Of a stretch of 39,660 bases of DNA, positions 12,390-31,151 are shown one piece after another. Source of the DNA: Thiobacillus sp. GTDB lineage: Bacteria > Pseudomonadota > Gammaproteobacteria > Burkholderiales > Thiobacillaceae. The notes under the pieces are model-generated. The model was not told the origin of the DNA and searched no databases. It saw only the letters and a list, made by a program, of their open reading frames with translations. The DNA is taken from positions 1 to 39,660 of the forward strand of contig NZ_JADMKC010000044.1 of assembly GCF_018780105.1 (NCBI RefSeq). Reading direction: 5' to 3'. Numbering within the stretch: the stretch's first letter is position 1; the number at the start of each line of letters is the position of its first letter. The position numbers were made by a program, and so were the translations under genes.

Positions 12390-12405
12390 TGTACGATGAC
12401 GCACA
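12390..12405 (-). promoter_or_regulatory. Operator-like palindrome, copy 1 (BON gene)
   Basis: Read on the plus strand: TGTACG-ATGA-CGCACA, an exact match to the window's recurrent motif, flanked by GTC on the left and TAG on the right. The GTC side faces the BON gene start at 12274. TCTAAA (12365-12370), read on the minus strand, lies 20 bases further towards the gene and could be the -10 box. Confidence 0.72.
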
Positions 12406-12492
12406 TAGCGCAATGGAGAATTCATTGCCCGTTCAGTTGCTGCGGAGACGGGCTGCGCACAGCCCAGGAGGGCTGCAGAAATACGAGGGTGG

Positions 12493-12696
12493 TCAGTCCT
12501 TGTTGCGTTCTTCAAAGTCCTTGATTTGCTGCTCGACTTCATCCTTCGTGAGGCCATAGGCCTCCTGGATTTTTCCCGCCAGCTCTTCACGCTTGCCCGC
12601 AATCACATCGAGGTGATCGTCAGTGAGCTTGCCCCACTGGGTTTTGACCTGGCCGCTGTACTGCTTCCAATTGCCTGCAACGATATCCCAATTCAT
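12493..12696 (-). CDS. CsbD family stress protein
   Basis: A 67-aa soluble protein, MNWDIVAGNWKQYSGQVKTQ through WGKLTDDHLDVIAGKREELA and GKIQEAYGLTKDEVEQQIKD, the full CsbD family pattern. CsbD proteins are abundant general-stress proteins of unknown mechanism. AAAGGAG lies 7 bases before ATG 12696, which decides the start in a longer open frame. An exact copy of the palindromic operator lies about 170 bases upstream. It is transcribed in the same direction as the BON gene, which has its own operator copy between them. Confidence 0.93.
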   Translation of the reverse strand: MNWDIVAGNWKQYSGQVKTQWGKLTDDHLDVIAGKREELAGKIQEAYGLTKDEVEQQIKDFEERNKD

Positions 12697-13121
12697 ATCA
12701 AACTCCTTTGTACGTAACCCGACCGACAGGATTGCCGATCGCGCATTCCCCGCCCCGGCCAGGCCTTCTCCCCGCGTTGCTTTCAGACAGCGAAGAATGG
12801 GCTCATGCAAGGGAAACCAGAATGCATGTGCGAGGCTGCGCGTAAAAGAAGCCAAGGTCTGTACGGTGTCGCACATGGGAGGCTGTGGCGCCCATGATGG
12901 GTCATCGGCTTGCACTGGATTCGGCTGGCGCCACGGACGATTCCGGAATACCCGCTCAGTGCCATTCGCGCTCACGCATTCCCCTTATGTTCGATAGCGC
13001 ACTGAATGGCGCATGGCATGCGCCTATTCTTCAATACGTACCGGACGCTGGCATCCAGCGCAGCGCCGGATAGTGCGGGCAGACAAACTGACCCCTCACT
13101 CACATTTCCAAGGAGAGCACC
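12697..13121. other. 425-bp intergenic region between divergent csbD-like and DUF3309 genes
   Basis: No convincing gene is seen on either strand. It holds one operator-like palindrome (12860-12875) and ribosome sites for both flanking genes (AAAGGAG for the minus gene; AAGGAG at 13110-13115 for the plus gene). A GCGCATGGCATGCGC self-complementary stretch lies near 13010. Confidence 0.6.
12860..12875 (-). promoter_or_regulatory. Operator-like palindrome, copy 2 (CsbD gene)
   Basis: TGTACG-GTGT-CGCACA, an exact match to the consensus, flanked by GTC on the side facing the CsbD gene and by T on the other. It lies 164 bases upstream of the CsbD start. A clear -10 box at the distance seen for other copies is not evident here. 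Confidence 0.7.
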
Positions 13122-13277
13122 ATGTTGGGAACCATCCTGTTGATCGTTCTAATTCTGATGTTGGTCGGCGCCATTCCGACCTGGCCGCACAGTAAAGGCT
13201 GGGGCTACGGGCCCAGCGGCGGTTTGGGTTTGATCGTGATCATTATCATCGTGCTGCTGTTGCTGGGACACTTGTGA
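13122..13277 (+). CDS. DUF3309 small membrane protein
   Basis: A 51-aa protein: MLGTILLIVLILMLVGAIPT, a short loop WPHSKGWGYGPSGGLG, then LIVIIIIVLLLLGHL. The WPHSxxWGYxPSGG loop between two hydrophobic helices is the DUF3309 signature. AAGGAG lies 6-7 bases before the ATG. It is transcribed away from the CsbD gene and ends 36 bases before the phospholipase-D gene, so it may lead that operon. Function unknown; the family commonly sits among stress genes. Confidence 0.87.
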   Translation: MLGTILLIVLILMLVGAIPTWPHSKGWGYGPSGGLGLIVIIIIVLLLLGHL

Positions 13278-13313
13278 CGGGCCGCCCTGTTCCGAAGCCC
13301 TGCTGACAGGTTT

Positions 13314-14768
13314 ATGCGTGCGCTTCGTGCTGGAAAGTGGATGTTTCCATCGGCTCTGAAATCGACCTATCGTATGCCGCATCGGTGGCAGGGGTGGGCC
13401 ATGTGTCTGTTCGCGCTCGGCCTGTCCGCTTGCAGCAGCCTGCCGACCATCGTCCCCGATCTGGCCCCAAGCCCCAGCCCTGCGGTGCAATTGGAGGGCG
13501 GACGCGGCACGCTATCCGCCGCACAAAGCCAGGCGGTCCTTGATCGCCTCGCACGCCGCGGTCCGGATACCGACATCTTCACCCACCATCTGGCACGGGA
13601 AGAGGCCATCGTCGGCAGCCCGCTGACCACCGGCAACCAGGTGGTGTTGCTGCAGGATGGCCCGGCCACCTACCAGGCCATGTATGCGGCCATTCTGGCG
13701 GCGCAGGACCACATCAACATGGAGACCTACATCCTGGACGACGACGAGGTTGGCCAGCGTTTTGCACAGGCATTGATCGCCAAACAACAGCAAGGCGTAC
13801 AGGTCCATCTGATCCGTGACAGCGTGGGCACCCTCGACACCCCGGCGGCTTTCTTCAAACAACTGACCGACAGCGGCATCCAGGTGCTTGAGTTCAATCC
13901 CATCAATCCGCTGCTGTCACGCAAGGAATGGTCGCTGAATCAGCGCGATCACCGCAAGCTGTTGATTGTCGACGGCCGCACCGCGTTTCTCGGCGGCATC
14001 AACATCAGCAGCGTCTACTCCGGCGGCTCGTTCAGGGCGGGTTCACGGGCCAGGCCCGGCAGTGGTTCCGACCACGGTCCGGCCTGGCGCGACACCGACC
14101 TGCAACTGCAGGGGCCCGTCGTGGCCGAATTGCAGAAACTGTTCCTCTCCACCTGGGAAACGCAGAAGGGCGCGCCCCTGCCCGAGAAGAACTACTTTCC
14201 ACCGCCCGAGCGTGCCGGTCGGGAAGTGGTGCGCGCGATCGGCAGTTCGCCCGACGAGCCCTACAGCCTGATTTACGCTACCCTGCTCTCGGCCATCGCC
14301 AGCGCCGAGACCAGTGTGCATCTGACCAACGCCTATTTCGTTCCCGATCCGCAATTGCTCGACGCACTCGAAGCCGCCGCCCGACGCGGCGTCGACGTGA
14401 CGCTGATTCTGCCCAGCCAGACCGACTCCTGGCTGGTATTCCACGCCGGGCGCAACTACTACGACCGGCTGCTGCAAGCGGGCGTCAAAATCCACGAGCG
14501 ACGCGGCGTGATCCTGCATTCCAAAACGGCATTGATCGACGGCGTCTGGGCCACGGTCGGTTCGACCAACCTCGATTGGCGCAGCTTTCTGCACAACTAC
14601 GAATTGAACGCGGTGGTACTGGGAACTGAATTCGGCAAACAGGTGCAGACGATGTTCGCCCGGGACCTGGCGGCGTCCGATGCAATTACGCTCGAGCAGT
14701 GGCGGCAGCGCCCGCTCAATCTGCGCCTGAAAGAATGGTTCGCGCGTGTCTGGGAGTATTGGCTGTGA
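13314..14768 (+). CDS. Cardiolipin synthase-like phospholipase D family protein
   Basis: A 484-aa member of the phospholipase D superfamily with two HKD motifs: HRKLLIVDG (His213, Lys215, Asp220) followed by GGINIS, and HSKTALIDG (His402, Lys404, Asp409) followed by GSTNLDWRS. This arrangement is that of ClsB/ClsC-type cardiolipin synthases. An N-terminal hydrophobic segment ending LGLSACSS looks like a lipobox, suggesting a membrane-anchored lipoprotein; the exact start (13314, 13341 or 13374) is unclear, and 13374 would put the signal at the N-terminus. It overlaps the following permease gene. Likely role: membrane phospholipid remodelling under stress. Confidence 0.87.
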   Translation: MRALRAGKWMFPSALKSTYRMPHRWQGWAMCLFALGLSACSSLPTIVPDLAPSPSPAVQLEGGRGTLSAAQSQAVLDRLARRGPDTDIFTHHLAREEAIVGSPLTTGNQVVLLQDGPATYQAMYAAILAAQDHINMETYILDDDEVGQRFAQALIAKQQQGVQVHLIRDSVGTLDTPAAFFKQLTDSGIQVLEFNPINPLLSRKEWSLNQRDHRKLLIVDGRTAFLGGINISSVYSGGSFRAGSRARPGSGSDHGPAWRDTDLQLQGPVVAELQKLFLSTWETQKGAPLPEKNYFPPPERAGREVVRAIGSSPDEPYSLIYATLLSAIASAETSVHLTNAYFVPDPQLLDALEAAARRGVDVTLILPSQTDSWLVFHAGRNYYDRLLQAGVKIHERRGVILHSKTALIDGVWATVGSTNLDWRSFLHNYELNAVVLGTEFGKQVQTMFARDLAASDAITLEQWRQRPLNLRLKEWFARVWEYWL

Positions 14769-15823
14769 ACTTCGACCTTTACCGCAAGGAATTCGTGATT
14801 GTCGTCACGGTGCTTTTCGGCCTCGCCCTTTACTGGATGCTGGCGCCCTTCTGGGGCGCGCTGGCCTGGGGTATCTGCCTTGCCTTCCTGTTGGCGCCGA
14901 TGCAGCGCTGGCTGACATGCCAGCTGAATGGACGTGCCGGTGTGGCGGCAGGAATCATCACCGTACTGGTGCCTGTCGTGCTTGCGGGGCCGCTGGTGAG
15001 CCTGGGCATGGCATTCGCGGACCAGTTCACGAATCTGGTTACACGCCTGCAACAGCAGCAGCTGCGCTCCGACGGCAGCCTGCTGATGCAACTGGAACGG
15101 CACCCCTTGATCGGCAAGCTGGCCGAGTGGTTGCGGCTGAATCTCGTCGCCACAACCGAACAGCTTCATGGCTGGCTGGAGAGTGGATCGCAGATGCTGC
15201 TGAAGTCGCTTGCGGCCAGCGGGGGCGACTTCGTTCTCAGCGCTCTGGGCACGGTGATCAACTTCTTCATCATGCTGTTCCTGCTGTTCTTTCTGCTGCG
15301 CGATGGGCGCGACCTGCTCGGCCGCGTGGTACGCCTGGTGCCGATGGAACCCGCTCGCCGGACCGAATTGCTCAAGCTGATAGGCGACACGACACGCGCT
15401 GTGGTCTACGGCGAGGGCTTGACCGCGCTCGCCCAAGGCACGCTGGTGGGCATCGGATTTGCCATCGCGGGCCTGCCCTCCGCTGTCGTGTTCGGGGTGC
15501 TGGCGGCGTTTCTGGCGCTGCTGCCCGTGGGCGGCGCAGCGCTGGTATGGGCGCCGGCGGTCGTTTTTTTGGTCGCCACGTCGCAATGGGGCTGGGCGCT
15601 CTTCATGCTGATCTGGGGCATGGCGGTATCGGTCTCCGATAACCTGATGCGACCGTTTCTGATTTCGCGACAGGCGCCGGTGTCGGTGCTCGCTGTTTTC
15701 ATCGGCGTCATCGGCGGCATCTCGGCTTTTGGCGTGATAGGCGTCATCATCGGGCCGGTACTGCTGACCGTCCTCGCCACGCTGCTGCGCTTCCTTGACG
15801 AGACGCTGTCGCGCGAGCGCTGA
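14765..15823 (+). CDS. AI-2E family (YdiK/PerM-type) membrane transporter
   Basis: A 352-aa polytopic membrane protein of the AI-2E transporter/PerM family. Seen: two N-terminal helices (FVIVVTVLFGLALYWMLAPF and WGALAWGICLAFLLAP), a central amphipathic soluble region, then paired helices including FFIMLFLLFFLLRDG, and C-terminal helices with GVLAAFLALLPVGGAALVWA, where the family's LPxxG pattern is visible. GTG 14765 overlaps the phospholipase stop (GTGA) and has GGGAG upstream, so it is preferred to an ATG at 14699 inside the previous gene. The substrate is not known; members include exporters and Na+/H+ exchangers. Confidence 0.85.
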   Translation: MNFDLYRKEFVIVVTVLFGLALYWMLAPFWGALAWGICLAFLLAPMQRWLTCQLNGRAGVAAGIITVLVPVVLAGPLVSLGMAFADQFTNLVTRLQQQQLRSDGSLLMQLERHPLIGKLAEWLRLNLVATTEQLHGWLESGSQMLLKSLAASGGDFVLSALGTVINFFIMLFLLFFLLRDGRDLLGRVVRLVPMEPARRTELLKLIGDTTRAVVYGEGLTALAQGTLVGIGFAIAGLPSAVVFGVLAAFLALLPVGGAALVWAPAVVFLVATSQWGWALFMLIWGMAVSVSDNLMRPFLISRQAPVSVLAVFIGVIGGISAFGVIGVIIGPVLLTVLATLLRFLDETLSRER

Positions 15824-15929
15824 CACCAACAGGAAAAGCCGTGATCAGATTGGCTTCCGTACCCAGCGGTGATTCTGGCAGCGGCCTTCAGATCATGGCG
15901 AAACGTTCAGGCTGCAGGAAACTTATGCT

Positions 15930-18900
15930 GTGACGACACGGGAAATTGCAATGGCTGCTTCAACCACGCGCCACCCAGCACGCCCGCTGATGGTGGGTGG
16001 CATCGTCTTTCTGGTCGCGGCCGCTCTGTCGGGATTACTCGTCTTGAAATTGGAGCAGCATTCCCTTCAAGACGAGCGGGTGCGTGTTGCCCGTCTGGCT
16101 GCCGACCATGCCGATCTGATCGAATACACCATCGCGCACGCGCTTTCAGCGACCCAATCCCTCGCGACCCTGGTGCGTCAGGGCAATGGCAGCATTGCCA
16201 ACTTTGACGTTATCGCCCACACGATGTTGCCGTATTACCCGGGTGCATCGGAGCTGGCGCTGGCGCCCGGTGGCGTGATCCGGAACGTCGCACCGATGCC
16301 TGGAAACAAAATGGCCATCGGCCTCAACCTGTTGACTGTCTCGACACAGCGCAAGGAGTCTTTGCTTGCGCGGGACAGTGGCAAGCTCACCCTGGCTGGA
16401 CCGCTTGAGTTGGCGCAAGGCGGAACAGGTGTGATCGGGCGCTTGCCGGTGTTTCTCAAAGACCGTGGAGGGCATCCTTTTTTCTGGGGCTTCACCCTTG
16501 TCGTGATGCGCTTGCCCGGCGGGCTGGATATGGCGCATCTGTCGCATCTGGACGAACAGGGATTGGCTTATGCGCTCTGGCGCATCCAGCCGGACACCGG
16601 ACAAAAACAGCTGATCGCCCGTTCCTCGCCAGCTACCCTGATTGAACCCGTGGAACGGACGCTGCGCGTGCCCAACGCAACCTGGACACTGAGCGTCGCG
16701 CCGGTCAAGGGCTGGGGCCATCCGTTCGGGCCATCACTCAAAGTGGCACTGGGGCTTCTTTTTAGCTTGATGCTGGGCTATCTGGCAAAGCTCTTTGTCA
16801 CATTGAAGATGCACAAGCAGCTACTCGAAACGCGCGTCGCCCATCGCACCGCCGAGATACTGGTGGCCCAACGCAAACTGCAAGCCACGCTCGACGCGAT
16901 TCCCGATCTGGTCTGGCTGAAGGATGCGGACGGCGCCTATCTGAGCTGCAATCCAATGTTCGAACGTTTTTTCGGCGCCCGCGAGGCCGAAATCGTCGGC
17001 AAAACAGATTACGACTTTGTCGAAAGGGCGCAGGCGGACTTATTCCGCGCGCACGACCGCATGGCCATGGCGGCCGGCAAACCCAGCATCAACGAGGAAT
17101 GGATCACCTTCGCTGACGATGGCAGCCGGAAACGGGTTGAAACGATCAAGACACCCATGGTCGATGAAGAAGGCAAACCCATCGGCGTACTGGGCATCGC
17201 CCGTGACATCACCGCGCGCGTGCAGGCGGAACACGCGCTTCAGGTATCCCGGCAACGGGCGCAGCAATACCTGAACATCGTCGGTGTGATGCTGATTGCA
17301 GTGGATGCAGCAGGCCGGATACAACTCATCAACCGCAAGGGCTGTGAGATATTGGGCGCGTCCGAGGCGGACATTCTCGGCAAGAACTGGTTTGAGCACT
17401 TTCTGCCGGAACGCATACGAGATGAGGTCAGGGAAATGTTCAGCCAGCCACTGAATGGCAGCGTCGCGCCCATCGAGTACATGGAAAATTCGATATTGAC
17501 CCTCAGCGGCGATGAGCGTGTCATGGCATGGCACAACACGCTCTTGCTGGATGACGCCGGCGGGGTTACCGGCATGCTCGCGTCGGGAGAGGACATCACC
17601 GAACGCAAGCACTATATCGCCGAGCTGGAGCATAAGGCGCTGTACGACAGCCTGACCGATCTCCCTAACCGCAACCTGTTTACGGACCGATTGACGTTGG
17701 CGCTCGCCGTCGCCAGACGTGAAACCAGGCCGCTGGCCATCATCCTGCTGGACATCGCCCGCCTCAAAGAAGTCAATGACATCCTCGGGCATCACAATGG
17801 CGATATCGTGATAAAGGAAGTCGCCCGGCGCATCACGATGGCGCTACGCGAAACGGACACGGTGGCCCGCTTGAGCGGAGATGAGTTCGCCATCCTGCTG
17901 CCCGGTGACGACAAGACGGCCGCCACCTTTGCCATTGAGAAAATTCAAAAAGCGATGGAATCACCGGCCTTGATTGATGGCAGCCCGCTCGATATCGAAG
18001 TCAATATGGGCGTCACCGTGTATCCGCAACACGGTGAAGATCCGGGTGTGCTGATATCACGTGCGGACATTGCCATGCGGATGGCGAAAACCGAAGTGAG
18101 CGGTTTTTGCATTTACGAATCAGGCAGTGACCCCTATACCCGACGGCGTCTGAGTTTGCTGGGTGAACTGCGTCAGGCCATTTCCCGGAATGAACTTGTG
18201 CTCTATTACCAACCCCAAATTGACATTGCATCCGGCAAAGTCATGGGGGTGGAGGCGCTGGTGCGCTGGCCCCGCACTGTGGACGACATGGTCTCGCCCA
18301 TGGAATTTATTCCGATAGCCGAACAGTCCGGCCTGATTCGGCCGCTCACCTTGTGGGTGCTGGAACAGGCAGTGCGACAGTGTGGGCGCTGGCGTGCAGC
18401 CGGCTTCGACCTCAAGGTCTCCGCCAACCTTTCCGCACGCAACCTGCTGGATCCCACCTTGCCGGATGTGCTGGCGACAATGCTCGCGAACCTTCAGGTA
18501 ACAGCGGATTGCCTCATGCTCGAAGTCACCGAATCGGCCGTGATGCTGCAACCCGAGCGCGCCCTTCATATCCTGACGCAGCTGCACGAAATGGGAACAA
18601 GCCTCTCAGTCGACGACTTCGGCACCGGCTACTCCTCGCTTGCCTATCTCAAAAAGCTGCCTGTGCGCGAACTCAAGATTGACCAGAGCTTTGTTTCCGG
18701 CATGGTGAGAAACGAGAATGATGCAATCATCGTGCGCTCAACCATCGACCTCGCCCACAACCTGGGACTCAAGGTTGTAGCCGAAGGCGTGGAAGACCAG
18801 GAAACCCTGCAATTGCTTGCAAGCCTGGGATGCGATACGGGCCAGGGATTCCTTTTTGCCCGCCCCATGCCGCCCGAGGATTTCTCACGATGGTTAAGCG

Positions 18901-18944
18901 AATCGCCTTGGGGATTTCCCATCGGGGTTCAAGAAGAACCCTGA
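15930..18944 (+). CDS. CHASE-PAS-PAS-GGDEF-EAL c-di-GMP signalling protein
   Basis: A 1004-aa membrane sensor. Layout: a membrane helix near 20-40; a periplasmic CHASE-type sensor about 50-260 (MLPYYPGASELALAPGGVIR and GLNLLTVSTQRKESLLARDS); a second helix near 270-290; PAS domains about 308-430 and 440-560; GGDEF about 570-735; EAL about 740-995. The GGDEF motif is SGDEF (649-653), with an RETD inhibitory I-site five residues before it. The EAL domain is complete: EALVRW (from 775), ANLSARN, EVTESAV, DDFGTGYSS, LKIDQSFV, AEGVEDQE. Phosphodiesterase activity is expected; cyclase activity is possible, since SGDEF is a tolerated variant in some enzymes. GTG 15930 or ATG 15951 may be the start. 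Confidence 0.92.
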   Translation: MTTREIAMAASTTRHPARPLMVGGIVFLVAAALSGLLVLKLEQHSLQDERVRVARLAADHADLIEYTIAHALSATQSLATLVRQGNGSIANFDVIAHTMLPYYPGASELALAPGGVIRNVAPMPGNKMAIGLNLLTVSTQRKESLLARDSGKLTLAGPLELAQGGTGVIGRLPVFLKDRGGHPFFWGFTLVVMRLPGGLDMAHLSHLDEQGLAYALWRIQPDTGQKQLIARSSPATLIEPVERTLRVPNATWTLSVAPVKGWGHPFGPSLKVALGLLFSLMLGYLAKLFVTLKMHKQLLETRVAHRTAEILVAQRKLQATLDAIPDLVWLKDADGAYLSCNPMFERFFGAREAEIVGKTDYDFVERAQADLFRAHDRMAMAAGKPSINEEWITFADDGSRKRVETIKTPMVDEEGKPIGVLGIARDITARVQAEHALQVSRQRAQQYLNIVGVMLIAVDAAGRIQLINRKGCEILGASEADILGKNWFEHFLPERIRDEVREMFSQPLNGSVAPIEYMENSILTLSGDERVMAWHNTLLLDDAGGVTGMLASGEDITERKHYIAELEHKALYDSLTDLPNRNLFTDRLTLALAVARRETRPLAIILLDIARLKEVNDILGHHNGDIVIKEVARRITMALRETDTVARLSGDEFAILLPGDDKTAATFAIEKIQKAMESPALIDGSPLDIEVNMGVTVYPQHGEDPGVLISRADIAMRMAKTEVSGFCIYESGSDPYTRRRLSLLGELRQAISRNELVLYYQPQIDIASGKVMGVEALVRWPRTVDDMVSPMEFIPIAEQSGLIRPLTLWVLEQAVRQCGRWRAAGFDLKVSANLSARNLLDPTLPDVLATMLANLQVTADCLMLEVTESAVMLQPERALHILTQLHEMGTSLSVDDFGTGYSSLAYLKKLPVRELKIDQSFVSGMVRNENDAIIVRSTIDLAHNLGLKVVAEGVEDQETLQLLASLGCDTGQGFLFARPMPPEDFSRWLSESPWGFPIGVQEEP

Positions 18945-18982
18945 AGATGAAACCACGCAGCTTTGCCGCCACTGAGTCCAGG

Positions 18983-19011
18983 CAAGCCTGAGAAGTGTTC
19001 ATCCAGGCTTG
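18983..19011. terminator. Hairpin between convergent genes
   Basis: CAAGCCTG (18983-18990) and CAGGCTTG (19004-19011) form a perfect 8-bp stem with a 13-base loop in the 164-bp gap between two convergent genes. No T run follows, so terminator function is only plausible. Confidence 0.35.
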
Positions 19012-19108
19012 AGAGACCCGGCCAGAAACCGTGTTTAGCGGCCACCCCGGCGAATGACCGAGTGCACCAGAGCCGGACTGACGAAACTTTAAACTTCAGA
19101 CAGCCAGG

Positions 19109-19639: not shown

Positions 19640-19897
19640 GATCGCTCGGAGTGGATCGGTTTCACACGGGAAAAATCAGCGACGGCAGATCAGGCCATCG
19701 TCAGTGCGGAATTGAATGGGTGCGCGCCCGTTCGATGCAGCGAACACGCCGAAAACAAGTGCGAGAATAGCCGCATGCCCGGACACAGTCTGTTCGTTGG
19801 CAGACATAACGATGACTGGGGTCGGGGCCATACAGGAATCGCCTTCGCGGGCGCCGCCGTGCGCAAGCGCCGCGGAAATCAGGGGAGTCAACGAACG

Positions 19898-22057: not shown

Positions 22058-22630
22058 TCACACTGGTTGGCGTGTGTTTGTCGGGCTGGTTTTTGCAAGC
22101 TGCACCAGCGCAGCCAGGAGTGTTTGAATGTTTTTCCGGATCGGCTCATCGGTCAGTCTGCCCTCCGGATCAAAGCGCTGTGAGGCATTGCCGATCATCA
22201 CTTCCGGTTGATTGACCGTGGGCATGTCCAGCGAGACGAGGATTTGCCGCAGATGGCATTGCGCGCGGGCCGTGCCCAGGCTACCGGTCGATGCTCCCAT
22301 CAGCGCCGCCGGCTTGCCGGTCCAGGCGCTCTCGCCGTAGGGTCTCGACGCCCAGTCGATGACGTTCTTGAGCACGCCGGCAACCGAATAATTGTATTCC
22401 GGCGTGGCGAACAGGATAGCATCGGCGGCCAGAATCTGCCGCTTGAATTCCAGCACGGCAGCAGGCATCGCCATTTCGGTGTCCTGATTGAATACCGGGA
22501 TGCCATGCAGTTCGATCAGCTTCAGCACTGCGCCGTCCGGCACCAGTTCCTGCGCCGCCTTGAGTGCGAAATGGTTGTAGGAGTCTTTGCGCAGACTGCC
22601 GACGATGCCCAGGATTTTGATCTCGTCCAT
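22058..22630 (-). CDS. NADPH-dependent FMN reductase
   Basis: A 190-aa flavodoxin-fold flavoprotein. The FMN phosphate loop reads GIVGSLRKDSYNH, and the flavin-contact motif TPEYNYSVAGVLKNVIDWAS is the hallmark of the NADPH-dependent FMN reductase/chromate reductase/azoreductase family. The second half includes LMGASTGSLGTARAQCHLRQ. Likely role: two-electron quinone or flavin reduction, giving oxidative-stress defence. The operator-like palindrome at 22689 lies 59 bases upstream of the start, nearly the same distance as before the other flavoprotein gene at 25385. It diverges from the CHRD gene. Confidence 0.92.
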   Translation of the reverse strand: MDEIKILGIVGSLRKDSYNHFALKAAQELVPDGAVLKLIELHGIPVFNQDTEMAMPAAVLEFKRQILAADAILFATPEYNYSVAGVLKNVIDWASRPYGESAWTGKPAALMGASTGSLGTARAQCHLRQILVSLDMPTVNQPEVMIGNASQRFDPEGRLTDEPIRKNIQTLLAALVQLAKTSPTNTRQPV

Positions 22631-22688
22631 GTTCAGGTTCCTTGTTCGATGGGCTGTTTACAGCGTGCCCGGATCTGGTGGCCAGTGC

Positions 22689-22704
22689 TGTGCGACAGCG
22701 CACA
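22689..22704 (-). promoter_or_regulatory. Operator-like palindrome, copy 3 (FMN reductase / CHRD)
   Basis: TGTGCG-ACAG-CGCACA, the most symmetrical copy (both halves perfect inverted repeats), with TAGCC on the right. It lies in the 226-bp divergent region, 59 bases from the FMN reductase start and 152 bases from the CHRD start, and could serve both. A weaker second copy, TGTGCG-TTAC-CGAACG, follows at 22722-22737. Confidence 0.72.
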
Positions 22705-22856
22705 TAGCCATTGGCCTGTTGTGTGCGTTACCGAACGGAATGGAGATCGCTCCAGGTGCATTGTGCGTGCTGGCTCGTCGCACTTTTGCGCTTTGCCGGT
22801 GCTTTCCAAAGCCGCTGTCCTCTGCGCTATTCCCATGATCTTTCAAGGAGTCGACC

Positions 22857-23330
22857 ATGACCCAACCATCAATTTCCCCCGGCGCCCCGCCCCACCTGTG
22901 GGTGCCATTTGCCTTGCTGCTTCTGGCCTCTGTCAATCTGTATGCGCAGCAGCCGATTTCGATCTCCCTGAGCGGCGACGCCGAGGTGCCGCCGGTGACC
23001 ACTTCAGCGAAAGGTACCGGGCAAATCACCGTGAAGTCCGACCGCACGGTAAGCGGCAGCATCAAGGTTTCCGGCCTGGTCCCGACGATGGCGCACATTC
23101 ATGAGGGTGCCGTCGGGAAAAACGGCCCGCCGATCATTACCCTGACCCAAATCGGCAACGACAGCTTCACCATCCCCGCCAGGGCCAGGCTGACCGATGC
23201 GCAGTACACGGGTTTTACGAGCGGCGAGTTGTACGTCAATGTGCACAGCGCCCAGTACCCGAATGGTGAAATCCGTGCGCAGTTGCTGCGTACGGAAGCC
23301 GGGGCGACGCCGACGCGCGCGAGTAACTGA
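22857..23330 (+). CDS. Secreted CHRD-domain protein
   Basis: A 157-aa exported protein: hydrophobic signal around LWVPFALLLLASVNLYAQQ, then one CHRD domain with the typical LSGDAEVPPVTTSAKGTGQI, MAHIHEGAVGKNGPPII and SGELYVNVHSAQYPNGEIRA motifs. CHRD domains were named from chordin; their bacterial role is unknown. AAGGAG lies 6 bases before the ATG. It is transcribed divergently from the FMN reductase and ends 84 bases before the alternative oxidase gene on the same strand, so the two may form an operon. Confidence 0.9.
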   Translation: MTQPSISPGAPPHLWVPFALLLLASVNLYAQQPISISLSGDAEVPPVTTSAKGTGQITVKSDRTVSGSIKVSGLVPTMAHIHEGAVGKNGPPIITLTQIGNDSFTIPARARLTDAQYTGFTSGELYVNVHSAQYPNGEIRAQLLRTEAGATPTRASN

Positions 23331-23414: not shown

Positions 23415-24062
23415 ATGCATCGGATATCGGGCAAATCGGAAGAGAGCGAAATGACGACTCCTGCGCTTGAACGACACTATGAGCCAAAGGATTTTCGCGA
23501 CCGGATTGCGTATGCTTTCGTCGTGTTTCTGCGTTTCTTCGCCGACGCTTTTTTCGCGCGTCGGTATGGCCATCGCGCGGTAGTGCTGGAGACAGTCGCC
23601 GCTGTGCCGGGCATGGTGGGCGGTGTGCTGCAACATTTGCATTCCCTGCGCCTGATCGAAGCCGATTACGGCAGGATTCGCTTGCTCCTGGACGAAGCGG
23701 AGAATGAACGCATGCACTTGATGACCTTCATTCAAATTACCGAGCCCTCCGGGCTCGAGCGCCTGCTGATCCGGCTTGCCCAAGGGGTTTTCTTCAACCT
23801 TTATTTCTTGCTTTACATGATTTCGCCCAAGACTGCGCACCGTGTCGTGGGGTACCTGGAAGAAGAAGCGGTCCACAGCTATACCGAGTATCTGGCCGGC
23901 GCGGACAACGGCACCCATGCCAACGTCGCGGCGCCCAGGATCGCGATCGATTACTGGAAGCTCGCACCAGACGCACGTCTACGCGAGGTCATCATCGCAG
24001 TCCGAGCAGATGAGATCCGTCACCGCGAAGTCAATCACGAACTTGCCGACGTGCTGGGTTGA
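23415..24062 (+). CDS. aox: Alternative oxidase (cyanide-insensitive quinol oxidase)
   Basis: A 215-aa monotopic di-iron quinol oxidase that passes electrons from ubiquinol to oxygen without pumping protons. All iron-ligand motifs are present: [13 protein letters not shown] (Glu59), [12 protein letters not shown] (Glu98, His101), [15 protein letters not shown] (a Glu within 149-151) and [12 protein letters not shown] (Glu200, His203). The hydrophobic segment [13 protein letters not shown] is the membrane-binding region. GGAG before 23415 favours this start; ATG 23451 is an alternative. Bacterial AOX genes are patchy in distribution and often tied to nitric-oxide or redox stress. Here it follows the CHRD gene and lies among redox genes. 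Confidence 0.95.
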
Positions 24063-24300: not shown

Positions 24301-24314
24301 AGCCTGCTTGCGGT

Positions 24315-25385
24315 TTATTTGGCTCGCGGACGCGACAGATTCGGCTGCACCGCCTGGAGCCGGCCGGCACGCAACTCGACCACGGCCTTCGCGACAGCAC
24401 GCGCCACATTGCGCGCCTCTTCCTGCACGGGTTCATCCCGGTCCAGGCTGTCGTGGCTAGTCGCATAGGGTTCGTAGTAGCCGATGTAGCGGTCGAGTCG
24501 CGCCTGTACACCGGCGTCGATGAAACCCATCCAGTCGAGCCAGTCCGACAGCGCGCGACGCGAGCCTTCGACCCCGGCCACGTCACCGTGGACGATCAGC
24601 CCGTAGGCGCGCCCGGCCAGGTGCTGCGGGTAGTCCCAGCCGGCCATCTCGAGTGCTTTTGCCTTGGCGGGATTCTTACCCGAAGTCGAAGTGGGATCGG
24701 GGTTGCCGCCGTCGGCGCACACCAGGCGGTCGATCATCAGCTTCAACGGGCTGGGGCTCTGATACCAATACACGGGCGAGACGATGATCACCGCATGGGC
24801 AGCGGTCCAGCGCTCGTAGATCTCGGCCATCCAGTCATTGGTCTGGTCGAGCGCGTGGTTGGGGTAGCAGCTGCACGGCCAGTTGCACAGGGGCATCGCG
24901 GTGGACGCACAGCCCTTGCAGGGATGGATCTTGCGGCCGTATTCGGAGGCGAGCAGGCTGAGGTCGAGCACGTCGGCCTGGATAGCGGCCTGCTCCACGA
25001 TTTCGCGCGCGATTTCCAGCATCCGGAAGGTCTTGGACATTTCGCCCGGGCAGCTGCCATCGTTGCGCGCCGACCCGCAGACCAGCAACACCCGGGACGG
25101 GCTCGCCGGATCGGCCCAGCGCAGTTGCGCGGCTTCGATGCGCTGTTTCGTCGCAATCCACTCGGACGACAAGTCGTAGTCCGGATCGGCATAGCCCGGC
25201 CCTGCCTTCTGCGTGAAAGGGGACTTGCGGTACTCGCTGTGGGCCTGCCAGGCGATCTCTTCTAGACGCGCAATGGACGCGTCTTCGGCACGGAACGCCG
25301 GATCGATGAAGGAGGCCCGAAACCGGGCGCTGAACTCGGCACGTGTAAGGGGGGCCGCTGCCTGGCCCTTGCGGATTTCAATCAT
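24315..25385 (-). CDS. Flavodoxin-fold NAD(P)H-dependent oxidoreductase with Cys cluster
   Basis: A 356-aa protein of the NADPH-dependent FMN reductase/iron-sulfur flavoprotein type. FMN phosphate loop: CGSARNDGSCPGEMSKT (from Cys103). Flavin contact: VSPVYWYQSPSPLKLMIDRL. Between them is a dense Cys motif, CKGCASTAMPLCNWPCSC, with Cys156, 159, 167, 171 and 173, which may hold an Fe-S cluster or disulfides. A roughly 95-residue N-terminal extension (RAEFSARFRASFIDPAFRAE) precedes the flavin fold. The operator-like palindrome at 25443 lies 58 bases upstream, with ATTAAT (25418-25423) placed as a -10 box. Likely a redox-stress enzyme; substrate unknown. Confidence 0.83.
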   Translation of the reverse strand: MIEIRKGQAAAPLTRAEFSARFRASFIDPAFRAEDASIARLEEIAWQAHSEYRKSPFTQKAGPGYADPDYDLSSEWIATKQRIEAAQLRWADPASPSRVLLVCGSARNDGSCPGEMSKTFRMLEIAREIVEQAAIQADVLDLSLLASEYGRKIHPCKGCASTAMPLCNWPCSCYPNHALDQTNDWMAEIYERWTAAHAVIIVSPVYWYQSPSPLKLMIDRLVCADGGNPDPTSTSGKNPAKAKALEMAGWDYPQHLAGRAYGLIVHGDVAGVEGSRRALSDWLDWMGFIDAGVQARLDRYIGYYEPYATSHDSLDRDEPVQEEARNVARAVAKAVVELRAGRLQAVQPNLSRPRAK

Positions 25386-25442
25386 GATGGCCTCCGATGG
25401 CCTGTAGACGAAGTGACATTAATGAACTGGCGTCAGGTCGTC

Positions 25443-25458
25443 TGTGCGGTGTCGCACG
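25443..25458 (-). promoter_or_regulatory. Operator-like palindrome, copy 4 (Cys-rich flavoprotein)
   Basis: TGTGCG-GTGT-CGCACG, one mismatch from the consensus, with GTC on the side of the gene. It lies 58 bases upstream of the start at 25385. On the minus strand ATTAAT (25418-25423) begins 20 bases past the site, a position suited to a -10 box if the site is centred near -41. Confidence 0.65.
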
Positions 25459-25492
25459 AAATTGACACGGCTCCCGCATCGTCGTGCATGGC

Positions 25493-26806: not shown

Positions 26807-26967
26807 GATTCATTCACCCGTTCAGGGGCATTCCGGTTTCAGGATTTCGCCATGACCACGATCCGCGTGCAGCATGACAGCCCGCGCGATCAGTGCCATC
26901 CACCGTCCGCTTGTATAAGCCGCTCCCGGCTACCCTTCAATTACCTCGAATGGCCGGGAAGTTACGG

Positions 26968-27450
26968 TTACTGCCAGCGGCCCATGTGGCTCATTTGCAC
27001 CGTGTCGAAGGTCGCTTGTTGTTCGGTGGTAAGCGTGGCATAGAAGGTTTTGACCGCACCTGCCATCTTGTCCATGTTCTGCGCCCGGTCCTTCATCCAG
27101 TCCGCCATCTTCGCCATCCGTTCCGGCGCGGTCTTCTTCGGCATGGACTGGGCGTTGCCCCTCATCTGATCCCGCATGGCCGCCATGTTTTTGGCTTGAT
27201 CGTTTACGTGTCCGGAGAATGTCTGCCAGGCTGGCTGCTGATCTGCCGTGAGATTGAGCTTGGCCTTCAGCTCGCCAAGATGCTTTTCTGCGCGGGCGAC
27301 GGGATCCATTTTCATGTCGCCCGACATCATGCCCATGCCATCACAGCCCATTCCAGAATGATACGGACCCATTTTCGTGCCGGCCGTTGCGAGACTCACT
27401 GCAAACAGTGAGGAAATCAGTCCCAGCGTAAGTTTGGTATGCAGTTTCAT
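26968..27450 (-). CDS. Spy/CpxP-like periplasmic chaperone (LTxxQ family)
   Basis: A 160-aa periplasmic protein: signal peptide MKLHTKLTLGLISSLFAVSL ending ATA, a Met/Gly/Asp-rich linker (MGCDGMGMMSGDMKMDPVAR), and the two LTxxQ motifs of the Spy/CpxP family (LTADQQPAWQTF and LTTEQQATFDTV) on long helices. Spy proteins are ATP-independent chaperones induced by envelope stress and by metals. AAGGAG precedes the ATG. A palindromic operator copy lies 166 bases upstream (27616-27631). The Met-rich linker may bind copper, which is speculation. Confidence 0.9.
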   Translation of the reverse strand: MKLHTKLTLGLISSLFAVSLATAGTKMGPYHSGMGCDGMGMMSGDMKMDPVARAEKHLGELKAKLNLTADQQPAWQTFSGHVNDQAKNMAAMRDQMRGNAQSMPKKTAPERMAKMADWMKDRAQNMDKMAGAVKTFYATLTTEQQATFDTVQMSHMGRWQ

Positions 27451-27615
27451 GATCAGTCTCCTTAAAAGTACTTTGGATCGTATGGATTACAGCAAAGCGA
27501 CAGCATGCGCCTTTGCCCTGTTTGCTCCCGGCAGCCGGTTATCGGCATTCACTTGCGATACATCCGGACCTTCCGTTTAGCCATCGAGATTCTGCGACTG
27601 CAGCCGGCTTGCGTC

Positions 27616-27631
27616 TGTACGTCAGCGCACA
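27616..27631 (-). promoter_or_regulatory. Operator-like palindrome, copy 5 (Spy-like gene)
   Basis: TGTACG-TCAG-CGCACA, an exact consensus match with GTC on the side facing the Spy-like gene, 166 bases from its start. CAGAAT, read on the minus strand 22 bases past the site, could be a -10 box. Confidence 0.7.
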
Positions 27632-27694
27632 CACGTCATTACCGGCACGCACCCCCATGAAGCTCGAAACTGAACCCGCAGAAACCGCACTGAG

Positions 27695-27710
27695 TGTGTG
27701 CTGTCGTACA
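27695..27710 (+). promoter_or_regulatory. Operator-like palindrome, copy 6 (DsrC-like gene)
   Basis: TGTGTG-CTGT-CGTACA on the plus strand, followed by GAC: the inverted orientation of the other copies, with one mismatch. It faces the plus-strand DsrC-like gene, 158 bases from its start. TAGTAT (27731-27736) begins 21 bases past the site and is a good -10 candidate. Confidence 0.68.
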
Positions 27711-27868
27711 GACGCCTGTATTCCCCTGAGTAGTATTGCGGGAAAGGATTAGGGCCATGACAGCAAACGGCCATTCCCGGAAAGAGCCCTCAGTCCCGGC
27801 TTGAGGTGGGCGGTATATCACTGCTTGCCCGAGTATGAGGAAATCCACTGAACAACAGGAGCAGGATC

Positions 27869-28237
27869 ATGAACAATGCGACACAGGAATACATCCGCCC
27901 AGGCTACGAAGTCGAACCCGTACCAGGCTTTCCCCATGCACCGTCCGACTGGACCCGCGAAGACGCCGAAAAAATCGCCCAAACAGAAGGCCTGACGCTG
28001 ACTGAAGAACATTGGCAGGTGGTACGTGCGTTACAGGATATCTGTATGCACAGCGAGGAACCCTCGTTGAACCTTCGCGACTTGCACGATGCGCTCGACG
28101 AGCACTTCCATTCCGCAGGCGGCATCAAGTATCTCTACGAACTGTTTCCCAAGGGCCCGCTGGCTCAGGGCTGTCTGCTCGCAGGCCTGCAACCGCCAGC
28201 AGACGCGCAGGAACCAGGCATGGGCAGCGCGGCCTGA
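27869..28237 (+). CDS. DsrC/TusE family sulfur-relay-like protein lacking the terminal Cys
   Basis: A 122-aa cytoplasmic protein of the DsrC/TusE family. Family motifs: GYEVEPVPGFPHAPSDWTRE, EGLTLTEEHWQVVRALQDI and GGIKYLYELFPKGPLAQGC. In DsrC two C-terminal cysteines carry sulfur; the inner one (CysB) is present as Cys102, but the penultimate CysA is absent because the C-terminus runs on as PPADAQEPGMGSAA. Another Cys (59) is outside this system. It therefore cannot form the usual CysA-CysB trisulfide, and a regulatory or altered carrier role is likely. AGGAGCAGGATC precedes the ATG. It has its own operator copy and -10 box, and no dsr genes are nearby. Confidence 0.9.
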   Translation: MNNATQEYIRPGYEVEPVPGFPHAPSDWTREDAEKIAQTEGLTLTEEHWQVVRALQDICMHSEEPSLNLRDLHDALDEHFHSAGGIKYLYELFPKGPLAQGCLLAGLQPPADAQEPGMGSAA

Positions 28238-28392
28238 ACGATCGGGAACCGGAAAACGATGATCGAAGCCGGCTTGTGGCGCGTGTCGTTGGAGAACGGA
28301 AAAGGGGCTGTGCATTCCCGATGCAGGGCCTATGCTCCGAAAATGCGGGCAATTCCGGTTGCCACTTCATCTGACCCACACAACGGTGCACC

Positions 28393-29331
28393 ATGAAATT
28401 CAAGGATTACTACGCGGTTTTCGGCGTGCCGCGCGATGCGACACAGGACGACATCAAACGCGCTTACCGCAAGCTGGCCCGTCAATACCACCCGGATGTC
28501 AGCAAGGACCCCGATGCCGATGTACGTTTCAAGGAACTGGGTGAGGCCTACGCCGTCCTGAAGGATCCCGAGAAACGCGCGGCCTACGATCAGGTTGGCA
28601 GCCAGTGGAAGGCCGGACAGGATTTCCAGCCACCGCCTGACTGGGATGCCGGATTCGAGTTCAGCGGACGCGACTTCGGAGCGGGCGCCGACCCGGGTCA
28701 CAGCGACTTCTTCGAAGCGCTGTTTGGCCGCCGGGCCCGGGGCGGACAACGGCCCGGCATGCATGCGCGCGGCCAGGACCACCATGCCAAAGTGTTGATC
28801 GATCTGGAAGACGCTTACCGTGGTGTCCAGCGCAGCATCTCACTGCGTATGCCTGTGCCGGATGAGCACGGACGCGTCGTGCTGCGGGAGCGCAAGCTTG
28901 ATGTCCGCATCCCCAAAGGCATTCGGGCGGGCCAGCATTTGCGCCTGGCTGGACAAGGTGAGCCCGGGGTAGGCGAAGGGCCGCCCGGCGATTTGTTTCT
29001 GGAAATTGAATTCAAGCCGCACGCACAGTTCCGCGTCATCGGCCCGGATGTCTATCTGGACCTGCCGCTGGCGCCGTGGGAGGCTGCGCTCGGCTGTTCG
29101 CTGACCGTACCGACGCCGGAAGGATCGGTGCAACTCACCGTTCCGGCGGGATCGGCGGCGGGTCGGCAGTTGCGGCTGAAGGGCAAAGGCATTCCAGGCA
29201 AAACCCCCGGCGATCTATACGCTGTGCTGGCCATCGTCCTGCCCCCCGCCGTCAACGAAGACGAGAAGGCGGCCTACCGCGCAATGGCCGAAGCCTTCGA
29301 TTTCAACGCGCGCGCGCCGATGAAAGGCTGA
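28393..29331 (+). CDS. cbpA: DnaJ-like co-chaperone CbpA
   Basis: A 312-aa Hsp40: N-terminal J domain (DYYAVFGVPRDATQDDIKRA) with the HPD motif at 33-35, a Gly/Phe linker (about 75-115, FEFSGRDFGAGADPGHSDFF), no zinc-finger domain, and a C-terminal substrate-binding DnaJ region (VLIDLEDAYRGVQRSISLRM, RIPKGIRAGQHLRLAGQG). The missing zinc centre marks the CbpA type. It is followed 6 bases later by its modulator gene cbpM, so the pair is an operon. It stimulates DnaK and is a stress or stationary-phase chaperone in E. coli. Confidence 0.94.
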   Translation: MKFKDYYAVFGVPRDATQDDIKRAYRKLARQYHPDVSKDPDADVRFKELGEAYAVLKDPEKRAAYDQVGSQWKAGQDFQPPPDWDAGFEFSGRDFGAGADPGHSDFFEALFGRRARGGQRPGMHARGQDHHAKVLIDLEDAYRGVQRSISLRMPVPDEHGRVVLRERKLDVRIPKGIRAGQHLRLAGQGEPGVGEGPPGDLFLEIEFKPHAQFRVIGPDVYLDLPLAPWEAALGCSLTVPTPEGSVQLTVPAGSAAGRQLRLKGKGIPGKTPGDLYAVLAIVLPPAVNEDEKAAYRAMAEAFDFNARAPMKG

Positions 29332-29337
29332 TCCGTC

Positions 29338-29655
29338 ATGAGCACAACAGAAATTCAATCCATCCAGGGCCTGATCGTCGAAGAGGACATTCCGCTGACA
29401 CTGGAGGACTTGTGTCAGGCATGTTTCGCTCCCCGGGAGCATGTGATCGCCTGGGTCGTGGAAGGGGTGCTGGAGCCGCTCGGTGAAACGCCGCAAGACT
29501 GGCGCTTCACCGGCGCGTCCCTGCATCGCGCACGGCTGGCGTTGTGGCTCACCCGCGATCTGGAAATCAATCTGCCCGGCGTGGCGCTGGCGCTGGATTT
29601 GTTTGATGAAATCGCAGCGCTGCAAGCACATCAGCAACGCGTTGGACCGCGCTGA
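29338..29655 (+). CDS. cbpM: Chaperone modulator CbpM
   Basis: A 105-aa protein with a MerR-like helical pattern (LTLEDLCQACFAPREHVIAW, then VVEGVLEPLG, WRFTGASLHRARLALWLTRD and NLPGVALALDLFDEIAALQA). CbpM binds the J domain of CbpA and inhibits its co-chaperone activity. The position directly after cbpA and the size fit well. Its stop lies inside a 7-bp stem hairpin shared with the end of the convergent folE gene. Confidence 0.92.
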   Translation: MSTTEIQSIQGLIVEEDIPLTLEDLCQACFAPREHVIAWVVEGVLEPLGETPQDWRFTGASLHRARLALWLTRDLEINLPGVALALDLFDEIAALQAHQQRVGPR

Positions 29656-29671
29656 GCGGCAAGTCGCTCAG
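29652..29671. terminator. Hairpin between convergent cbpM and folE
   Basis: CTGAGCG (29652-29658) pairs perfectly with CGCTCAG (29665-29671), 6-base loop. It overlaps the stop codon of cbpM and the end of folE, only 12 bases apart. No T run is present. The same stem sequence lies between the other convergent pair at 8172-8188. Confidence 0.42.
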
Positions 29672-30309
29672 GTATTGCTCAACGGCCCCGCGCCCGTTCG
29701 GCCGATCATCGCCAGAAACTCGCGCCGGGTTGAACTATCCGAGCGAAAGGCACCCAGCATGCGGCTGGTCACCATGGCCGCACCCACTTTGTGTACGCCG
29801 CGCGTGCTCATGCATTGATGGGCTGCCTCGATCACCACCGCAACGCCTTTCGGTTGCAACACGTCGTTCAGCGTATCGGCGATCTGCACCGTCATCCTTT
29901 CCTGGATCTGCAGGCGCTTGGCATAGATGTCGACCAGGCGGGCCAGCTTGGAAATGCCCACGACCCGGCGATCCGGCAGATAGGCCACATGCGCCTTGCC
30001 GATGATCGGCACCATGTGGTGCTCGCAATGGCTTTCAAAACGGATATCGGTCATCACGATCATTTCGTCGTAGCCATCGACTTCGGAGAACGTACGCGAC
30101 AGGGTCTGCACCGGATCCTCCAGATAACCGGCGAAGAATTCCTCGTAGGAGCGCACGACGCGCGCCGGGGTATCGAGCAGGCCCTCGCGATCAGGGTCAT
30201 CACCGGCCCAGCGGATCAGCGTACGTACCGCGTCTTCGGCGGCCGCACGATCAGGCCGGGCCGAGGGTTCGGATGTTCTGGAGGGGGTGTCAGGCGGTAT
30301 GGAAGCCAT
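29668..30309 (-). CDS. folE: GTP cyclohydrolase I
   Basis: Zn-dependent enzyme that converts GTP to dihydroneopterin triphosphate, the first step of folate and pterin synthesis. The 213-aa product has Zn ligands Cys95 and His98 in [11 protein letters not shown] and Cys166 in HQCMSTRGV, plus the family segments [37 protein letters not shown] and [13 protein letters not shown] 30309 is preferred to the 30420 frame start, since the residues before it are not family-like. Length and N-terminal extension are normal. It may belong to a tetrahydrobiopterin or tRNA queuosine branch in addition to folate; the context does not tell. Confidence 0.95.
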
Positions 30310-30471
30310 GCGGACGGTCCTTTCCTGCTCGGGAAACTGGGGACTGCTACAGGATAGGCGGAACTGAAAGTCCGGGCGTCCTGCCATTGCTCGCGGCGCG
30401 CGGCGTGGGTTCGCTTGCACTTTGCCCGCGCGTGCGGCTGAACCACATTGCCCGCGAAGGCAGCGCGAGGA

Positions 30472-30669
30472 TTATTCCTTGTCGCCCTTTGCCGCGTCCT
30501 GAATGCTTTCGCCGGCTTTTTCAACCTGTTCCCCGACCTTCTCAGTCGTCTGGTCGAGTTTCTTGCCGGCCTGTTCCGCCGGGCCTTCCTGTTGCTGGCA
30601 GCCGGACAGCGTCACAAACAACACTCCCATGGCCAGAGCGGTAAGCGCCATCTTGTCGAATTTCATCAT
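30472..30669 (-). CDS. Small lipoprotein with LEA-like charged repeat
   Basis: A 65-aa lipoprotein: signal MMKFDKMALTALAMGVLFVT with lipobox LSGC (Cys24), then a Gln/Lys/Glu-rich helix with repeats spaced about 7-11 residues (AEQAGKKLDQTTEKVGEQVE, KAGESIQDAAKGDK), similar in feel to LEA-type desiccation proteins. AGGAGA is 6 bases before ATG 30669; a second ATG follows at once. It lies 125 bases after the glycine-zipper lipoprotein gene on the same strand, so the two may share a transcript. Function unknown; probably envelope stress. Confidence 0.75.
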   Translation of the reverse strand: MMKFDKMALTALAMGVLFVTLSGCQQQEGPAEQAGKKLDQTTEKVGEQVEKAGESIQDAAKGDKE

Positions 30670-30794
30670 GTGGTTCTCCTGGTAATTTGTTTGTCCGGCA
30701 GCGAGCTTGAGCATGTCGCTCATGCCCGCTGCGGACGCATGGCAATGCGTGAGCGTGACGCAGCGACCGGGCAGACTGGCGCTAAGTACGTTGA

Positions 30795-31016
30795 TCATTT
30801 ATCACCGACCTCGTGTCCGATAACACCACCGACGGCCGCACCACCAACGGTTCCGACCGCGCTGCCGTTTGTGAGTACCGCACCGCCAACTGCACCGATT
30901 CCAGCACCGATGGCGGTGCTTTTATCCTGTGTCGACATATTGGAACACCCGCCCAAGCTGAACAGCATGGCGGCGACAACGGTGGTACTGAACGTGAATC
31001 TCTGTATCGTTTTCAT
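30795..31016 (-). CDS. Glycine-zipper lipoprotein (OsmB-like)
   Basis: A 73-aa lipoprotein: signal with lipobox SLGGC (Cys24), then a glycine-zipper hairpin (STAIGAGIGAVGGAVLTNGS and AVGTVGGAAVGGVIGHEVGD). This is the OsmB/glycine-zipper 2TM type, induced by osmotic and envelope stress in E. coli. AAAGGAG precedes the ATG. An operator copy (31136-31151) lies 119 bases upstream, with TAGACT placed as -10. Probably a stress-induced outer-membrane protein. Confidence 0.88.
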   Translation of the reverse strand: MKTIQRFTFSTTVVAAMLFSLGGCSNMSTQDKSTAIGAGIGAVGGAVLTNGSAVGTVGGAAVGGVIGHEVGDK

Positions 31017-31135
31017 GGGACATCTCCTTTTCTGAACTCACGCACCCGGTGTTGCGCACCGGGACGAACTGCACTCAAGCAGTACGCATACATGGCTCCG
31101 ATATTTGAAGTCTATGCGGAAGGCGTCACCCGGTC

Positions 31136-31151
31136 TGTCTGCTGACGCACA
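31136..31151 (-). promoter_or_regulatory. Operator-like palindrome, copy 7 (glycine-zipper lipoprotein)
   Basis: TGTCTG-CTGA-CGCACA, with a perfect right half and two mismatches in the left half, flanked by GTC and TAAG. The GTC side faces the lipoprotein gene 119 bases away. TAGACT on the minus strand (31109-31114) begins 22 bases past the site. Confidence 0.6.

Follow-up and report, generated by a model that had tools for sequence, protein, structure and literature searches.

What recognizes a palindrome that recurs between the genes of a single bacterial contig, and which genes would it serve? The question is raised by a 39,660-nucleotide stretch of Thiobacillus sp. DNA (assembly GCF_018780105.1, contig NZ_JADMKC010000044.1, positions 1 to 39,660; hereafter the window). 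In it an original prediction, made from the letters of the sequence, had noted seven intergenic copies of a 16-bp palindrome, TGTRCG-N4-CGCACA, as the mark of a candidate stress and redox regulon, and had recognized no regulator for the motif. A probable one can now be named, the Crp/Fnr-family protein P0001 (247 amino acids; 31244..31987, minus strand), encoded beside the palindrome at 31136. The palindrome is likely the operator of P0001, which would activate about nine nearby transcription units from position -41.5.

A 20-bp palindrome and its place in the promoter

All seven palindromes are present (12390, 12860, 22689, 25443, 27616, 27695 and 31136) and match as reported, with 12390, 12860, 22689 and 27616 exact, 25443 and 27695 (the latter read on the minus strand) at one mismatch, and 31136 at two. 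None overlaps a gene in the list curated for this analysis, whose own gene bounds leave 16.3% of the window intergenic. The list of sites was incomplete, with 12988 and 22722 omitted: a weight matrix built on 51 sites from other genomes, including two from the near relative L016 and no window DNA, ranks these two and the original seven as the nine top places of the window. A 46-site matrix that leaves out five Thiobacillus and Hydrogenophilales loci (L016, L017, L018, L023 and L024; 82-94% identity) returns the same nine. Their scores run from 12.4 to 27.5 bits, and the maxima of 20 Markov-shuffled windows from 3.6 to 12.5; site 22722, at 12.4, is therefore not sustained by score alone. In the alignment of the 51 copies, a T (82%) and a C/A flank the search pattern on the outside and a YR step occupies its center; neither was imposed, so that the site is best described as a 20-bp palindrome, T(C/A)TGTRCG-NYRN-CGYACA(G/T)A. 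Looser searching adds nothing, as 104 window matches at up to three mismatches compare with 111 expected from shuffles. The signal thus lies in the near-exact copies, and the loose ones are uninformative.

The distance from the palindrome to the promoter is the second feature shared by these sites. Among 92 promoters with a site (of 165 examined, upstream of Crp, BON, CsbD and histidine-kinase homologs), 34 have a strong -10 hexamer at center +29, and the count at each remaining offset between 12 and 89 is six or fewer; at center +29 the second hexamer position is A in 72% and the sixth T in 67%. In the window alone the mean -10 score is 2.62 at this offset, as against 0.95 over all offsets (z 5.5) and 1.76 at the runner-up, a test made on the same ten site-gene pairs in which the offset was first found. 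Seven of these ten pairs reach 2.4, as do 18 of 22 further promoters (random hexamers, 3.3%); of six other ways to pair window sites with genes, all but 19789 read leftward score low at the -10 place. Placing the start 12 bp from this -10 puts the operator center at -41.5 from a predicted sigma70 start, consistent with the class II geometry of Crp/Fnr activators; -41.5 is the class II operator position of CRP and FNR. For H. seropedicae fnr1 a center at -42 is reported (PMC5934665).

The same position bears on the direction of control. Of the six -35 positions four fall within the palindrome arm, where the letters are not those of TTGACA, which favors activation. Repressors can also sit over the -35 region, and a P0001 that binds at -41.5 but represses is conceivable on that ground; it is improbable, because the arm replaces most of the -35 hexamer, giving promoters that look activator-dependent, and because one preferred -10 distance fits contact with RNA polymerase.

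Across the 3,317,970-base genome, TGTRCG-N4-CGYACA occurs exactly in five places, four of them on the window contig (39.7 kb, 1.2% of the genome), and its backwards control in none. On whether the motif prefers the space between genes, the check favors the original prediction as far as it reaches: in the window the nine best sites all lie there; the sole exact copy elsewhere, C9:12268, is inside an open reading frame (ORF). Copies with one mismatch number 27 genome-wide against 28 for the control, so that enrichment is local. With the 20-bp pattern, 7 of 10 genome places at up to two mismatches and 11 of 34 at up to three fall in the window (control, 20 at up to three), and the regulon is mostly a local island. 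Of the three outlying sites at up to two mismatches, C14:45597 (inside an ORF) and C51:8799 were set aside for lack of a good -10. The third, C50:36890 (L111:1501), has a well-placed TATTAT before the gene for a 63-residue membrane protein, downstream of which is a gene that resembles a target in locus L073, and is a probable outlying member.

A quite different class of protein is brought to mind by the copy C9:12268, as roughly 600 bp away there is an ORF of NtrC-like appearance, judged by motif. The NifA site, TGT-N10-ACA, has the outer letters and length of the palindrome and is contained in it, so that the copies could be enhancers of a NifA/NtrC-like sigma54 activator. This is highly unlikely, as the preferred offset carries a sigma70-type -10 and the C9 copy, besides being inside an ORF, scores just 10.4; sigma54 promoters were rejected, -24/-12-like elements (TGGC-N7/8-TGC) occurring in 4 of 102 downstream stretches.

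The palindrome in other genomes

The palindrome follows the regulator into other genomes. Around 80 regulator orthologs (80 loci, 1,252,411 bases), the exact motif has 51 copies in 36 loci, and the 180 arrangements of its half-site letters (motif included) have a mean of 1.06 and a median of 0. The runners-up are TGRTCG (29 copies), TGTGCR (22) and TRTGCG (20); the last two overlap the motif in their letters and are partly the same copies, and 27 of the 29 TGRTCG copies lie within homologs of receiver-domain genes. No motif copy of the 51 lies inside a homolog of any window gene; the first ORF caller assigned 93.6% of the loci as coding, and its intergenic count (20/51) was not used. Matrices trained on half of the loci matched 36 of 40 and 39 of 40 unseen ones (75 of 80 in total), with 153 + 142 = 295 matches compared with 4 + 3 = 7 in reversed sequence. 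In a de novo ranking of palindromes, TGTGCG-N4-CGCACA is fourth among the real entries, rows of N stemming from N in one locus. The higher-ranked palindromes derive not from regulator genes but from receiver-domain gene homologs (TGRTCG-N4 with the 27 of 29 copies just given, CTGATC-N6 with 26 of 26); of the others, GCAGGT-N8 sits in kinase homologs (17/18) and TGGGCG-N9 in regulator genes (20/20).

Whole genomes give a similar picture. The regulator (E<=1e-40) is detected in 39 of 120 genomes of the order, and exact sites number 70 in 154.1 Mb with it (0.454/Mb) and 40 in 249.6 Mb without (0.160/Mb); the control pattern gives 36 (0.234/Mb) and 55 (0.220/Mb) in the same genomes. Site density differs with a Mann-Whitney p of 7e-6, own genome excluded, a figure that, like all such presence/absence numbers, overstates significance because related genomes are non-independent samples. 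Among the 45 sites listed, 18 have a regulator copy no more than 20 kb away, and 7 of these 18 are 72-198 bp before the start of that copy.

Another measure of conservation is the recurrence of the site (at most one mismatch, within 300 bp upstream) before homologs of the window genes, for which the mean background is about 4.3% per 300 bp. This check too favors the original prediction, the site recurring firmly before genes for BON (19/37) and CsbD (10/18) proteins, the regulator (30/108) and the histidine kinase (14/48). Rates are lower for lmo0937-like (3/21), entericidin-like (3/17), phospholipase D (3/10), DUF3309 (2/7), DUF883 (1/11), receiver (REC)-PAS (1/90), REC-GGDEF (1/84), glycine-zipper (0/11) and YqjK (0/5) genes. 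Homologs of the first flavin mononucleotide (FMN) reductase, the CHRD protein and the DsrC-like protein have a site in 1 of 1 case each.

Comparison of loci from 38 regulator genomes and 49 of the 81 others points the same way for BON, where a site is found in 10 of 30 loci with the regulator (9 of 29 once L128, identical in DNA to training locus L095, is taken out) and 1 of 27 without, or, at 50% identity and above, in 8 of 23 and 0 of 7. For CsbD the counts, 10 of 30 and 1 of 5, are too small for a comparison, and the sole exception is a genome, G010, that holds a distant partial relative of the regulator. The genes themselves are present in 21 of 38 regulator genomes versus 5 of 49 others (CsbD) and 30 of 38 versus 16 of 49 (BON).

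Near-perfect, intergenic and in several copies, the palindrome might also be thought a repeated extragenic element or a transcript hairpin served by no regulator. This can be put aside with near certainty, as the copies vary in N4 core and flanks, lie upstream of the predicted start, and are found again in other genera ahead of the same gene families, oftener where the regulator is present.

Several observations concern the spread of the system. In G010 the distant partial Crp/Fnr relative stands at the end of contig C82 (locus L216), and a 30.5-bit site separates it from a gene that we take to be YeaQ/YmgE-like; from this site, the operator may extend beyond the close regulator family. Relatives of the regulator (E<=1e-30) are encoded on 76 plasmid or chromid records, 7 of them typed conjugative, and given these copies the system may be passed from host to host. 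Three plasmid loci were scanned: two are without a site, and Acidovorax plasmid L123 has a strong one before its Crp/Fnr gene. At L044, L059, L063, L082, L087 and other loci at least two regulator paralogs lie close to one another, about 38-74% identical to P0001, and several clustered paralogs have a similar palindrome upstream.

The regulator and its predicted regulon

P0001 combines a beta-roll resembling the cyclic nucleotide-binding domain with a Crp-type winged helix-turn-helix, which places it in the Crp/Fnr superfamily; a predicted operator of CRP/FNR symmetry and spacing co-occurs with its gene. There are at least 7,999 related proteins, called in databases, where they have a name, only 'Crp/Fnr family transcriptional regulator' or 'CRP-like cAMP-binding protein', and among titles and the beginnings of abstracts no recognizable description of motif or regulator was found, a scope within which earlier CRP/FNR surveys could still mention the motif. 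All 219 aligned sequences, many of them close to P0001, share Cys142, Cys219 and Cys221, and 200 have Cys153; the first three are also kept in 67 of 67 sequences of a wider alignment reaching down to 38% identity. Cys142 aligns with the position that we take to be the CRP hinge between domains. Given these cysteines, the signal may be a thiol/redox or metal one, which is the weakest link of the proposal.

The regulator gene ends a predicted operon that begins with the histidine-kinase gene: genes for a hybrid PAS histidine kinase, a REC-GGDEF protein and a REC-PAS protein occupy 32038..36417 (minus). In 36 of 80 loci the regulator gene is immediately preceded by a REC-PAS gene, but all three signaling neighbors are present in only 4 of 80 by the adjacency criteria used, so that a conserved four-gene operon is not claimed. 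These neighbors, a kinase with two receiver proteins, and two more Crp/Fnr proteins of the same genome matched by P0001 at 23-24% identity, offer other candidates for the protein that binds the site, with P0001 merely traveling along. That too is unlikely, if less so than a sigma54 enhancer: the domains beside the receivers are PAS or GGDEF, no Pfam DNA-binding output domain is found in the kinase and receiver genes, REC-PAS adjacency is missing, by the same criteria, in 44 of 80 loci yet the motif is found in 75 of 80, and the site lies directly before solo copies of the regulator.

With P0001 as the probable binder, the sites can be matched to predicted targets. Site 1 (12388..12407, minus; score 27.5) lies 123 bp before the start of a BON-domain, OsmY-like lipoprotein gene (11954..12274, minus; PF04972, with NCBIfam OsmY similarity below cut-off), with TAAATT at 12363-12368 as its -10. 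Site 2 (12858..12877, minus; 21.9) lies 171 bp before the start of a CsbD-like gene (12493..12696, minus; PF05532), and where the -10 is expected there is only a weak one, CAGCCT. Site 3, palindrome 12988 (12986..13005, plus; 15.4), precedes a gene for a DUF3309 small membrane protein (13122..13277, plus; PF11752), with TATTCT at 13025-13030. Site 4 (22687..22706, minus; 24.6) separates the gene for an NADPH-dependent FMN reductase (22058..22630, minus; PF03358) from that for a CHRD-domain protein (22857..23330, plus; PF07452), with weak -10 sequences on both sides (CACGCT and CGTTAC). Site 5, palindrome 22722 (22720..22739, plus; 12.4, bordering on the shuffled range), also precedes the CHRD gene, with CATTGT at 22759-22764.

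Farther along, site 6 (25441..25460, minus; 16.5) lies 65 bp before a second FMN-reductase-fold flavoprotein gene (24315..25385, minus; PF03358), with TAATGT at 25416-25421. Site 7 (27614..27633, minus; 27.3) precedes a Spy-like LTXXQ gene (26968..27450, minus; PF07813), with CAGAAT at 27589-27594, and site 8 (27693..27712, plus; 17.1) a DsrC/TusE-like gene (27869..28237, plus; PF04358, TIGR03342 above cut-off), with a moderate AGTATT. Site 9 (31134..31153, minus; 14.5), just beyond the regulator gene, lies 127 bp before a gene for an OsmB-like glycine-zipper lipoprotein (30795..31016, minus; PF05433, NCBIfam OsmB just below cut-off), with TAGACT at 31109-31114. Two weak candidates, at 7.8 both within the shuffled range, are 36560..36579 (minus), 152 bp before the histidine-kinase gene, and 19789..19808, which is intergenic if the start of a transglutaminase gene is ATG 19898 and has a -10 (TATTCT) on its minus-strand side and none on the transglutaminase side.

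Other genes adjoin these targets. About 85 bp after the CHRD gene and on its strand is an alternative oxidase gene (23415-24062; PF01786), which may be co-transcribed from the promoter at 22687/22720. The BON gene is followed on its own strand by genes (10528-11833) for small envelope-associated proteins of the YqjK, DUF883 and lmo0937/DUF5670 families, before which no high-scoring sites of their own were found. A DnaJ-family co-chaperone gene followed by one for a MerR_2-domain protein (28393-29655) resembles the CbpA-CbpM pair.

The proposal of a stress and redox regulon sharing one operator is supported, but as a mainly local island whose redox members are found chiefly here and in L016. 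Several results weigh against P0001 as the activator. The sites of CsbD and FMN reductase 1 have weak -10 sequences and that of DsrC a moderate one, all below 2.4. In regulator genomes the site is absent from 20 of 30 BON and 20 of 30 CsbD loci, and no glycine-zipper homolog of 11 has a site with at most one mismatch upstream; glycine-zipper genes lie downstream of a matrix match in four loci. FMN reductase 1, CHRD and DsrC-like genes have a site outside the window in one locus each, so that the case for these redox members comes from the window and, for the most part, one near relative, L016; for the redox members as a whole, FMN reductases included, one or two of the 80 loci hold a homolog with a site. 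The operon's own candidate at 36560 scores like shuffled sequence, and regulator copies directly after a REC-PAS gene have no near-match upstream. Paralogs with Val in place of Glu184, the residue matching CRP E181, keep the same motif, and no simple recognition code is therefore claimed. Finally, there are the 40 exact sites across 81 genomes without a detected regulator, at 0.160/Mb a density below the control rate; in this context, 14 regulator-less genomes were searched again at E<=1e-10, and one held the distant partial relative.

Taken with these reservations, the sequences are consistent with the following mechanism. A signal would alter the dimeric regulator, dimers of which would occupy the 20-bp sites; sigma70 RNA polymerase would then initiate 41-42 bp from each palindrome center. 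Envelope proteins (BON/OsmY-like, CsbD, DUF3309, OsmB-like and Spy-like) would rise, as would redox proteins (CHRD, perhaps alternative oxidase, the two FMN-reductase-fold proteins and DsrC-like), and together these would form one regulon, whose stress theme is read from domain names. Autoregulation is likely, as in relatives many regulator genes have the site immediately before them; it would be direct there and perhaps exerted through the kinase operon here, where the weak candidate precedes the kinase gene. The regulatory unit, a new operator with a probable regulon, is well supported by sequence. Class II activation by Crp/Fnr proteins is the known part of this proposal; the operator, the targets and the possible cysteine sensor of the subfamily are its new part.

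Of broader reach, and with somewhat less than an even chance, is the view that a very widespread group of Crp/Fnr activators, so far undescribed, controls envelope and redox stress genes in islands that are complete in themselves. If true, such islands would consist of the regulator, often PAS and receiver genes, and class II operators, with three invariant cysteines replacing the cAMP or FeS sensor. With an operator, a promoter geometry and a target list, a large unassigned branch of a major family of regulators becomes open to prediction from sequence, and there is a handle on the control of OsmY-, OsmB-, CsbD- and Spy-type envelope proteins in environmental Betaproteobacteria and relatives.

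Comparison with known systems

P0001 resembles E. coli CRP in fold and domain order, and the 16-bp core of its predicted operator shares the TGTR-N8-YACA outer letters and the -41.5 position of class II promoters. CRP contacts its site, TGTGA-N6-TCACA, through R180, E181 and R185 of the recognition helix; in P0001 and its relatives this helix mostly reads VRREG(I/V)TE, with the Arg and Glu matching R180 and E181 kept and Glu at the R185 equivalent, which would fit the kept TGT(G) and an inner half-site of CG instead of A. P0001 differs in being only 19% identical to CRP and in having a C-terminal extension with CxC, and the cAMP contacts of CRP, E72 and R82, align with a gap and a Thr. From the FNR/FixK group it is set apart by its alignment with E. 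coli FNR, in which the N-terminal Cys cluster that ligates the 4Fe-4S center of FNR is absent, Cys142, 153, 219 and 221 being found instead, and by an operator unlike the FNR box, TTGAT-N4-ATCAA. In VIA-align the CRP, FNR and GlxR chains are tied. NtcA is the top PDB sequence match of P0001 (E 1e-4), and its site, GTA-N8-TAC, resembles the outer half-site; P0001 nevertheless scores 22.3 bits where the cut-off of the NtcA model, NCBIfam TIGR03697, is 244.95, and there are zero nitrogen genes among the predicted targets of the window.

The targets have their own counterparts in E. coli. Two resemble OsmY and OsmB, below cut-off; the unnamed NCBIfam model matched by the CsbD protein is, we assume, YjbJ, and the LTXXQ family of Pfam presumably the Spy type. 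In E. coli, osmY, osmB, yjbJ and spy are osmotic and stationary-phase envelope genes under RpoS, Rcs and Cpx. The system proposed here would differ in that the genes are clustered and one Crp/Fnr-type operator would replace control by sigma factor and phosphorelay, a single activator doing, if the broader view is correct, what RpoS, Rcs and Cpx do in E. coli.

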